Origin: Actinomycetota bacterium
Lineage (GTDB): Bacteria > Actinomycetota > Geothermincolia > Fen-727 > Anoxymicrobiaceae
DNA length: 64,000 bases
Reading direction: 5' to 3'
Assembly: GCA_018831265.1 (NCBI GenBank)
Contig: JAHJCO010000012.1
Coordinates: forward strand, 62,001-126,000
Numbering within the stretch: position 1 is the first letter of the stretch; each line of letters begins with the position of its first letter. The notes under the pieces were generated by a model. It searched no databases, had not been told where the DNA came from, and saw only the letters and a list, made by a program, of their open reading frames with translations. Position numbers and translations under genes: made by a program. This document shows, in pieces, positions 16,693 to 20,056 of the stretch.

Positions 16693-17760
16693 GTGGCCGA
16701 CGAGGACGAAGGCAGACCCGGCGGTGAGGGCCGGAAGAAGGACTATCGTTGGGCCGGCGTGGATATCGACGCCGCCGACCGCGCGGTCTCACTCATCAAG
16801 GACGCGGTTTCCTCCACCCTCAGGCCCGAGGTGCTGACCGACCTGGGGGGATTCTCTTCCCTCTTCAAACTGGACCTTTCACGCTACGACGAGCCCGTGC
16901 TCGCCTGCGGCACCGACGGGGTCGGGACCAAGCTGAAGCTGGCGCAGGTGCTGGACGTCCATGACACAGTGGGTATCGACCTGGTCGCGATGTGCGCCGA
17001 CGACGTGGTCTGCTGCGGCGCCGAACCGCTCTTCTTCCAGGATTACATAGCCTGCGGGCAGGTGGTCCCGGAGCGGATCGCGCAGATCGTGGGCGGTGTC
17101 GCGGAGGGGTGCCGCAAGGCCGGCTGCGCGCTCACCGGCGGCGAGATAGCCGAGCACCCGGGGGTCATGGACCCGGACGACTACGACATCTCCGGGTTCT
17201 GCGTGGGCGTGGTGGAGCGCTCTCGGATAATAGACGGCTCGCGGATCGTACCCGAGGACAGGATCGTCGGGATCGGGTCGTCCGGCCTTCACTCCAACGG
17301 GTTCTCGCTGGTGAGAAAGCTGTTCTTCGAGTCCGGGGAGTTCAACCTGGACGACTCCTACAAGGGATTCGCCAAACCGCTGGGGCTGGAGCTCCTGACT
17401 CCCTCGGCCATCTACGCGAAGGGGGTACTGGAGGTGGCGGCGCGCTGCGACCTCAAGGCCGTGGCGCACGTGACGGGCGGCGGGATCACCGAGAACCTGC
17501 CGAGGGTCATCCCGGAAGACATGGACGCGGTAATATACACAGGCTCGTGGCCGGTGGGCAACCTCTTCACCTTCATCCGCAACGCGGCGGGGCTGGACCT
17601 GCACGACATGATGCGCACGTTCAACATGGGCCTGGGTATGCTTCTGGTCGTCCCGCCCTCCGAGGTGCGAGAGGTCATCAGGATGCTCGACGCCGGCATG
17701 TACCGAGCCTGGGAGGTCGGCGAGGTCGTAAAGGGCCAGAACACGGTCGTCTACCAGTAA
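16693..17760 (+). CDS. purM: Phosphoribosylformylglycinamidine cyclo-ligase (AIR synthetase)
   Basis: A 355-residue cytoplasmic enzyme that closes FGAM to AIR with ATP. The typical start 'YRWAGVDIDAADRAV' is followed by 'LACGTDGVGTKLKLA', 'DLVAMCADDVVCCGAEPLFFQDYIA', 'CALTGGEIAEHPG', 'GIGSSGLHSNGFSL' and 'HVTGGGITENLPRV', all conserved in PurM. It begins at GTG 16693 with GGGGGGCGG ahead, 21 bases after purF. An additional 15-residue acidic/basic leader (ADEDEGRPGGEGRKK) precedes the usual N-terminus. Immediately after its stop a palindromic repeat separates it from purN. Confidence 0.95.
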   Translation: MADEDEGRPGGEGRKKDYRWAGVDIDAADRAVSLIKDAVSSTLRPEVLTDLGGFSSLFKLDLSRYDEPVLACGTDGVGTKLKLAQVLDVHDTVGIDLVAMCADDVVCCGAEPLFFQDYIACGQVVPERIAQIVGGVAEGCRKAGCALTGGEIAEHPGVMDPDDYDISGFCVGVVERSRIIDGSRIVPEDRIVGIGSSGLHSNGFSLVRKLFFESGEFNLDDSYKGFAKPLGLELLTPSAIYAKGVLEVAARCDLKAVAHVTGGGITENLPRVIPEDMDAVIYTGSWPVGNLFTFIRNAAGLDLHDMMRTFNMGLGMLLVVPPSEVREVIRMLDAGMYRAWEVGEVVKGQNTVVYQ

Positions 17761-17761
17761 T

Positions 17762-17790
17762 TGTGCAAAAGGGTCAGGCACTTTTGCACA
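17762..17790. repeat. Palindromic repeat between purM and purN
   Basis: Perfect 10-base arms TGTGCAAAAG (17762-17771) and CTTTTGCACA (17781-17790) enclose GGTCAGGCA. The element begins two bases after the purM stop and ends 13 bases before the likely purN start. An inverted-orientation relative lies just after purN at 18421-18451. Confidence 0.8.
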
Positions 17791-17803
17791 TCGGGGGTGC
17801 GTT

Positions 17804-18415
17804 ATCGCGGACAGACTCAAGATCGCAGTCCTCGCCAGCGGCTCCGGCACCAACCTGGAGGCGATCGCCGGGGCCATCGACCGCGGGGAGGTGCCCGCCC
17901 AGATCGTGCTCGTGCTGAGCGACAACCCCGATGCCTACGCCCTGGAGCGCGCGCGCGGTCGGGGAATACCGACGAAGGTCGTGCTGCCGGCGGACTACCC
18001 CGACCGGCCGGCATTCGACGCAGCGATCGTCGAGTCCCTGAAGGAGGCGGGCGTCGGGCTGGTGGTGCTCGCCGGGTACATGAAGCTGGTCGGGCCGGCG
18101 TTCGTGGAGGCGTTCCGGGGGCGCATAATGAACATCCACCCCGCGCTGCTGCCCGGCTTTCCGGGGGAGCACGGGGTGGAGGACGCGCTTGCGCACGGCG
18201 TCAAGGTCAGCGGGGTCACGGTGCACTTCGTGGACGACGGGCTGGACACCGGGCCGATAATCGTGCAGGCGGCGGTCCCCGTGCAGGAGGAGGACGACAA
18301 GGAGTCGTTGCACAACCGGATCCACGAGCAGGAGTACCGGGTCTATCCGGAGGCCATTAAGCTGTTCGCCGAGGGGCGCCTCCGAATCGAAGGGCGCCGG
18401 GTACGCATTGTCTGA
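17804..18415 (+). CDS. purN: Phosphoribosylglycinamide formyltransferase, start codon abnormal
   Basis: About 203 residues with all parts of PurN: phosphate-binding LASGSGTNLEAI at the N-terminus, catalytic 'IMNIHPALLPGFPG' with its Asn and His, and 'VHFVDDGLDTGPII' with the Asp. It transfers a formyl group from 10-formyl-THF to GAR. The frame has no ATG, GTG or TTG between a stop at 17729 and a GTG at 17891; starting at 17891 would remove the phosphate loop. The only plausible starts are ATC 17804 or GTT 17801, with GGGGGT at 17793-17798 ahead. Either a rare ATC start is used, or one base is in error (the nearby GTG 17797 is out of frame). A palindrome lies immediately upstream and may have replaced the original start region. 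The exact start is uncertain. Confidence 0.88.
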   Translation: MADRLKIAVLASGSGTNLEAIAGAIDRGEVPAQIVLVLSDNPDAYALERARGRGIPTKVVLPADYPDRPAFDAAIVESLKEAGVGLVVLAGYMKLVGPAFVEAFRGRIMNIHPALLPGFPGEHGVEDALAHGVKVSGVTVHFVDDGLDTGPIIVQAAVPVQEEDDKESLHNRIHEQEYRVYPEAIKLFAEGRLRIEGRRVRIV

Positions 18416-18420
18416 AGATG

Positions 18421-18451
18421 TGTAGCAAAAGTGCCTGACCCTTTTGCTACA
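18421..18451. repeat. Palindromic repeat between purN and purH
   Basis: Perfect 11-base arms TGTAGCAAAAG (18421-18431) and CTTTTGCTACA (18441-18451) enclose TGCCTGACC, which is the exact reverse complement of the loop of the element before purN. It starts five bases after the purN stop and ends 52 bases before purH. Confidence 0.8.
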
Positions 18452-18502
18452 CTGCGATAGACTGCCGCGGAGAAACCTGGCTCCCGTATGAAAGGGGAAG
18501 GC

Positions 18503-20056
18503 ATGCCGAAGGTCAAGAGGGCGCTGCTGAGCGTCTCCGATAAGGACAACATCGTGTGGCTGGCTCGCGAGCTGGAGGCCATGGGCGTGGAGCTCATCTC
18601 CACCGGCGGCACCTACAAGCTTCTTGCCGGGGAGGACGTGAAGGTGACCCCGGTCGCCGAGGTGACCGGCTTCCCCGAGATGCTGGACGGCAGGGTAAAG
18701 ACCCTCCACCCCAAGATCCACGGGGGCATCCTGGCCGACCGTTCCAAGCCGGAGCACATCCGGCAGCTCGAGTACCAGAAGATCCCCCGGATAGACCTGG
18801 TGGTGGTCAACCTGTATCCCTTCGCCGCGACAGTGGCAAGGCCCGGGGTGACCCGCGAGGAGGCCATCGAGCAGATAGACATAGGCGGCCCCACGATGGT
18901 GCGCGCCTCGGCCAAGAACAACGAGTTCGTCGCCATCGTCGTGAACCCCGCTCGCTACGTCTCCATCGTCGAAGAGATGAAGGCGTCGGGCGGAGAGATA
19001 AGCAGGGAGACGTGCGGCGAGCTGGCCCGCGAGGCGTTCGCCCACACCGCCGACTACGACGCGATGATCACGGCCTACCTGTCGGCGGAGGCGGGCGAGG
19101 AGGGCGAGTTTCCCCGGCTGCTCGGCCCGACCTTCAAGAAGGTCTCCACCCTGCGGTACGGCGAGAACCCGCACCAGTCCGGCGCGCTGTACGCCGAGTC
19201 CGGCGCGGTGGGGGCGTCGCTGGCCACAGCGCCCCAGATAGCCGGGCCCGCTCTCTCGTTCAACAACATCCTGGACGGGGAGGCGGCATGGCAGTGCTGC
19301 CTGGAGTTCGAGCGCCCCGCCTGCGTCATCATCAAGCACAACAACCCCTGTGGGGTGGCGGAGGCCACGGGCCCCGCCGAGGCGTACCGCAAGGCCCTGG
19401 ACTGCGACCCGGTCTCGGCGTTCGGCTCGGTGATCGCGTTCAACAGGCCCGTGGACGCCCCGTGCGCCCGGGCGATGAAGGGCAATTTCATCGAGCTGCT
19501 GCTGGCCCCGGCTTTCGATGACGAGGCCCTCGAGATCCTCAAGGTCAAGAAGGACCTGCGCATCCTGGGCATGGCCGACTCTACGGGTATGCAGGCCGCA
19601 GGCCTGGACATGAGGCGCGTCCATGGCGGGATGCTGGTACAGGAGTACGACACCGACCCGTACGACAGGGCCGCCTGGAAGGTCATGAGCACGGTCGAGC
19701 CCACCGAGGAGCAGTGGGCCGACCTGCTGTTCGCCTGGCGCGTCTGCAAGCACGTGAAGTCCAACGCCATCGTCCTGGCGAAGGACGGGGCCACCGTCGG
19801 CGTGGGCGCCGGGCAGATGAGCAGGGTGGACTCGGCCGGAATAGCGGTCGAGAAGGCCGGCGAGAAGGCTCAGGGGTGCGTGGTCGCCTCGGATGCCTTC
19901 TTCCCGTTCCCGGACGCCGTCGAGAAGGTCGTAGGCGCGGGAGCGAAGGCCATGATAGAGCCGGGCGGCTCCAAGCGCGACGACGAGGCCCTTGCCGTCT
20001 GCGAGGCGAACGGCGTGGCCATGGTCTTTACGGGACGCAGGCACTTCCGCCACTAG
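18503..20056 (+). CDS. purH: Bifunctional AICAR transformylase / IMP cyclohydrolase
   Basis: A 517-residue enzyme for the last two steps to IMP. The N-terminal MGS-like cyclohydrolase has '[20 protein letters not shown]', '[11 protein letters not shown]', '[19 protein letters not shown]' and '[14 protein letters not shown]'. The transformylase domain has '[14 protein letters not shown]', '[15 protein letters not shown]' (catalytic Lys-His), '[25 protein letters not shown]' and '[11 protein letters not shown]'. ATG 18503 is preferred, with AGGGGAAGG just ahead; an in-frame ATG at 18488 would add five residues. It closes the purine cluster; a 48-base tandem repeat follows. Confidence 0.95.

Follow-up and report, generated by a model that had tools for sequence, protein, structure and literature searches.

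A probable AUC start codon for purN beside a dispersed palindromic repeat in an actinobacterial genome

Introduction

Few bacterial genes with near-cognate start codons have been documented, and infC, the gene of initiation factor 3 (IF3), is the textbook one. The start of infC is given as ATT in E. coli and ATC in Streptomyces (PMC5472188) and as AUA in S. aureus (PMC13009471). Beyond infC, the Streptomyces gene sigR has been shown experimentally to start with GTC and to be repressed by IF3 (PMC5472188), and ribosome profiling in S. aureus has mapped near-cognate starts at cvfC1 (AUU), ccpN (AUA) and citZ (AUA), those of cvfC1 and ccpN being conserved and that of citZ being conserved within one strain lineage (PMC13009471). 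A fusion construct carrying an AUC start-codon mutation has also been described (PMC10303841). A title search of a partial library of the literature turned up no bacterial purN with an AUC/ATC or otherwise noncanonical start. Gene finders that are limited to ATG, GTG and TTG miss genes of this kind or shorten them.

The purN gene described here, from an uncultured actinobacterium, most likely belongs with infC, sigR and S. aureus citZ among the genes with near-cognate starts, its putative start being AUC. It resembles infC in having a near-cognate codon behind a strong Shine-Dalgarno (SD) sequence, and ATC also occupies this place in the infC of its own genome. In contrast to infC, which autoregulates IF3, purN encodes an enzyme of purine synthesis with no known role in initiation, and whereas near-cognate infC starts appear to be common in the class, that of purN has been seen in one genome only. 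Like sigR, purN would be a case outside infC of an actinobacterial gene that begins with a near-cognate codon, but sigR has GTC rather than ATC, is regulatory, and has had its start demonstrated by experiment (PMC5472188). The S. aureus genes share with purN a near-cognate codon behind an extended SD, and citZ is likewise an enzyme gene, of central metabolism; their starts, however, were mapped by ribosome profiling and are conserved (that of citZ within one strain lineage), whereas the purN start is known from the sequence of one genome (PMC13009471).

Results

An intact purN gene lacks a canonical start codon

The features of the locus are collected in Table 1, with positions counted in the window, which is the whole 64,000-nucleotide stretch of DNA that was analysed. 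From stop to stop, the PurN frame in the open-reading-frame reading of the window runs over 17732-18415 (227 codons). An earlier note on this DNA had claimed that purN has no ATG, GTG or TTG start, and this was confirmed: the first such codon in the frame is GTG 17891, which lies 23 codons past the start of the conserved phosphate-loop motif IAVLASGSGTN at 17822. The positions given in that note were also right, with GTT 17801 and ATC 17804 in frame and GTG 17797 out of frame. A further near-cognate codon in the frame, ATC 17822, with which the motif itself begins, was absent from the note.

Table 1. Positions of the features of the purM-purN-purH region in the window
Feature	Position	Strand	Remarks
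purM (AIR synthetase)	16693..17760	+	GTG start; Pfam AIRS, AIRS_C
Palindromic repeat copy TTGTGCAAAAGGGTCAGGCACTTTTGCACA	17761..17790	+	30 bases; predicted hairpin with 10-bp stem
SD-like GGGGGTG	17793..17799	+	seven contiguous pairs with the anti-SD consensus, one of them G-U
Proposed purN start codon ATC (AUC)	17804..17806	+	coding-score peak, SD spacing, ATC at the aligned place in infC
purN (phosphoribosylglycinamide formyltransferase)	17804..18415	+	203 codons plus stop; TIGR00639, Formyl_trans_N
Second repeat copy, inverted (GTGTAGCAAAAGTGCCTGACCCTTTTGCTACAC on the + strand)	18420..18452	-	directly after purN
purH (bifunctional AICAR transformylase / IMP cyclohydrolase)	18488..20056	+	next gene of the operon; Pfam AICARFT_IMPCHas, MGS

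As read from the sequence, the body of purN is intact and complete. Its product matches the equivalog model TIGR00639 over model positions 2-191 of 192, with 252.1 bits against a cut-off of 150.1 (E 2.7e-75). PurT, the alternative enzyme (TIGR01142), gave only weak matches far under the cut-off in a search of the genome. Since no PurT above the cut-off was found, the cell probably needs purN, a conclusion qualified by the 94.77% completeness of the genome.

Of 104 PurN loci, all but the window's own have a canonical start in the 20 codons that precede the motif. These loci comprise the window's own (L001), 29 from relatives with whole genomes, and 74 of 80 from genome contigs, the six that were omitted (L003-L008) apparently lying on the same contigs as rows among the 29 relatives. 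When a stricter motif pattern was used, 73 of the 104 loci were readable and the outcome was unchanged. A canonical codon was found near the motif in all 29 relatives read, each of which stands at genus distance or more from the window's genome. The genomes searched contained no second sequence of the same species or genus; among named records, the nearest are metagenome assemblies of actinobacteria, including Candidatus Geothermincola secundus and Candidatus Geohydrothermomicrobium.

Within the genome, the missing start is unusual too. On the 194,656-base contig that carries it, purN came top of 120 genes ranked by the coding score that accumulates ahead of the first canonical start, with 12.15 vs 5.68 for the next gene. 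It was also the only strong no-start case in a census of 400 genes (594,656 bases), where just three others scored above 5 (5.2, 6.6 and 6.8); the gene with 5.68 is not among them because open reading frames running off a contig end were left out of the census. One of the three encodes a response-regulator/PAS-domain protein in which the first canonical codon precedes the first domain, the other two match no Pfam family, and none of the three is a clear second case.

Coding signal and SD spacing favor ATC 17804

We consider it likely that purN is translated from AUC at ATC 17804, and this is the best reading of the signals in the locus. When codon scores in the PurN frame were summed upstream from GTG 17891, the sum reached its maximum of 12.15 at ATC 17804, dropped above that codon, and was below zero at 17732. 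The five codons between ATC 17804 and the motif contribute +1.19, a weakly favorable coding score that includes one rare codon (AGA). ATC 17804 stands 6 codons ahead of the motif, and -6 is also where the first canonical codon, sought within 20 codons of the motif, most often lies in the 73 readable PurN rows; the nearest sister genera mostly start PurN at -9.

The spacing from the end of GGGGG is six bases to ATC 17804 and three to GTT 17801. In our own scoring scheme, the SD score at ATC 17804 is 17.5, a value that 0.8% of 3000 random positions attain, as do 16.7% of the starts chosen for genes. Across the contig, spacings of 4 to 8 between GGAGG and the start form the commonest block, with further peaks at 2 and 11. 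The strong, well-spaced SD that is expected of the near-cognate class is present at purN (GGGGGTG, spacing 6). In the predicted fold of the mRNA, the SD bases are mostly paired, with unpaired probabilities of 0.02 to 0.53, and the first two bases of ATC 17804 are mostly free; the fold of the region is slightly better than that of shuffled sequences (z -2.14, with 7 of 200 shuffles equally good). The predicted pairing of the SD would make for weak initiation, and it is somewhat contrary to a start at AUC.

The earlier note had held ATC 17804 and GTT 17801 to be the only plausible choices and had listed a rare start among its options. The rare start is the option best supported here, and it is ATC 17804 that the coding peak, the SD and the parallel with infC point to. 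GTT 17801 is unlikely, as it lies three bases from the SD core and has a lower coding score than ATC 17804. Other candidates were rejected as well. ATC 17822 would leave the protein without an N-terminal extension and has no SD that is apparent by eye; a start at GTG 17891 would cost the protein its phosphate loop; and the PurN frame includes neither TTG 17761 nor GTG 17763, which lie at the repeat's edge.

infC starts in the same genome and its relatives

The infC gene of the same genome (L142, G000:C23) reads GAAGGAGGGGTTGCC-ATC-ATA-GGT, and no canonical start was found between its SD and the conserved N-terminus. Its start region can be read as AAGGAGGGGTTGCC-ATC-ATA or near, so that on sequence the start could be ATC or the adjacent ATA, and the aligned codon in a sister genus (G001) is ATA. 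We found infC in 27 of 30 genomes, its own included. The start place is occupied by ATA in 20 of 22 relatives and by ATT in the remaining 2 (loci within L161-L186). Four further infC loci were read by position: CTG stands there in two of them, a third has ATA as well as an ATG near the SD, and the last has an in-frame ATG two codons ahead of ATC. In some relatives a GTG directly precedes the conserved RVN of infC, which is a possible canonical alternative. Taken together, near-cognate infC starts look to be general in this actinobacterial class. Their presence in the same genome and in most relatives suggests that the translation machinery accepts such codons, and an infC with ATC, or the ATA beside it, as its apparent start lends credibility to AUC initiation at purN, short of proof.

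The parallel with infC also bears on the explanation that competes best with an AUC start, which is that the codon is really ATG or some other canonical start and that ATC reflects either a single-base substitution in the assembly or a rare start allele of this strain that lowers expression. The assembly is of metagenome type, in 60 contigs, and is 94.77% complete, and a single rare base error could also account for one strong case in 400 genes. Against this, the infC of the same genome is near-cognate too, as it mostly is in the relatives, and there is no sign of poor assembly, the only other no-start candidates in the 400 genes being three weak ones. We regard a substitution or a rare allele as unlikely, if still worth keeping in mind.

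A different kind of error, which the earlier note had raised, is an insertion or deletion that brings GTG 17797 into frame. The start would then be GTG 17797, with one spurious base (or a real frameshift) within 17800-17821, and its distance of about 8 codons before the motif would be close to the -9 that prevails in the nearest sister genera. However, the SD score upstream of GTG 17797 is 0, the codons of 17800-17820 score a clearly unfavorable -5.44 when read in its frame, and 17800-17821 contains no homopolymer of 3 bases or more. These observations make an indel improbable.

A dispersed repeat occupies half of the purM-purN spacer

The stop codon of purM, TAA 17758-17760, abuts the first repeat copy, which ends 13 bases before ATC 17804 and just ahead of the SD-like run. 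From the purM stop to the motif there are 61 bases in the window, and 30 of them (about half of the spacer) belong to the repeat. We measured 12 relatives, in one of which no purM open reading frame was found; in the other 11, with the upstream frame of L088 and L090 presumed to be purM, the distance is 55 to 189 bases. Without the repeat, the spacer of the window would be 31 bases, which is below all 11 relatives, and a replacement that removed the old leader thus looks likelier than a simple insertion. The codon at -9, where the sister genera usually start, is in the window a GGG inside the SD-like run. The suggestion in the earlier note that a palindromic insert displaced the start is borne out insofar as the insert is real and is a dispersed repeat beside the start; that it removed the start is plausible from the spacing. 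By the same comparison, the repeat plausibly replaced the ancestral purN leader along with the start codon.

A separate observation is that the purM-purN spacer of a relative in another genus of the family (L089, G006) holds a different palindrome with a GTGCCTGACCCC core, and that this relative has kept its ATG.

It could be supposed that purN was recently broken, its start having been lost after insertion of the repeat, and that the purine pathway is completed in some other way. The absence of a canonical start and the adjoining repeat would fit such a loss, but the intact gene body, the TIGR00639 score far over the cut-off and the lack of any PurT above its cut-off leave it very improbable. 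Eukaryotes fuse the PurM and PurN enzymes, and here the open PurN frame begins at 17732, within the last purM codons; a PurM-PurN fusion that arises when ribosomes shift +1 out of purM and read on through the repeat is nevertheless hardly credible, given that the coding score declines upstream of ATC 17804 to negative values by 17732, that no slippery site is evident by eye, and that relatives have open upstream stretches of similar length.

The repeat resembles those associated with REP-type transposases

The window contains two copies of the repeat. In the genome, the 19-base core of the repeat was matched 152 times (76 + 76) with at most 3 mismatches, and a reversed-pattern control gave 0 matches; the two sets of 76 were counted as separate places because in neither window copy is the core palindromic at that tolerance. 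Thirty exact copies share the palindrome. A GTAG tag common to the palindrome ends, which marks the GTAG REP class, was not found in the 30 copies, and some copies carry gtag within the outer stem. The spread of the core across 29 relatives is patchy: two genomes of the same class and other families have 39 (G018) and 127 (G019) matches, two relatives within the family have 16 and 10 matches, and all others have 0 to 5.

There are 13 matches to Y1_Tnp in the genome. One of the six transposase loci that were read (L149:1405-2212, G000:C43) is flanked on both sides by inverted copies of the repeat, and its product scores 62.3 bits (E 4.5e-17) against the NCBI model REP_Tyr_transpos, below the cut-off of 80. 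This transposase is a possible source of the 152 copies. The repeat has several likenesses to the REP and TIR repeats of the RAYT and TIRYT tyrosine transposases (PMC3733652): a short palindrome, a copy number above 100, inverted copies flanking a transposase gene of the REP-associated type (as at L149), and a loop close to the published GGGGWSAS, which is AGGGTCAG at purN and GGGGTCAG in other copies. The repeat differs from those described in that the L149 transposase falls below the NCBI cut-off and its copies have no shared GTAG end tag. From its sequence, the repeat appears to be of a mobile type and fits the REP/TIR class.

The purN gene itself lies between two inverted repeat copies 660 bases apart, a layout similar to that of the L149 transposase gene. 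The idea that purN and the two flanking repeats moved together as a cassette was considered and set aside. In 11 of the 12 relatives measured, a long open reading frame ends shortly before purN. In most of these relatives the upstream frames have purM-like ends (for L088 and L090 the identity is presumed). By a rough estimate, a pair of copies 660 bases apart is unremarkable in a genome with 152 of them.

Discussion

We propose that translation of the intact purN gene begins at the near-cognate AUC at 17804, where a strong extended SD, GGGGGUG, six bases upstream would position the start codon, and that the protein would begin (f)M-ADRLKIAVLASGSGTN. Initiation at this AUC may be weak and limited by IF3, as it is at other near-cognate starts. 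By analogy with infC and sigR, purN is probably sensitive to IF3, whose own gene apparently uses the same codon in this genome. The dispersed palindromic repeat probably replaced the ancestral leader and start of purN. The sequence itself shows the lack of a canonical start, the intact gene body, a coding signal that ends at ATC, the SD with its spacing, ATC beside ATA at infC, and the repeat family; initiation at AUC, sensitivity to IF3 and the repeat as the cause are inferred. The most specific form of this proposal, in which a transposase-linked repeat removed the start and rescue by AUC placed purN under the level of IF3 together with infC, is tentative, and we think it doubtful that all of its parts hold.

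With gene finders restricted to canonical codons, PurN would begin at GTG 17891 and so lose its phosphate loop. The apparent near-cognate infC starts across the class (ATA, ATT, CTG and ATC) could provide a base for a survey of codon use. If the AUC start of purN is real, purine synthesis would be tied to the level of IF3, and the locus would illustrate concretely how a start site can be reshaped by a dispersed repeat. If the role proposed for the repeat is true, a mobile repeat would have made a housekeeping gene sensitive to IF3.
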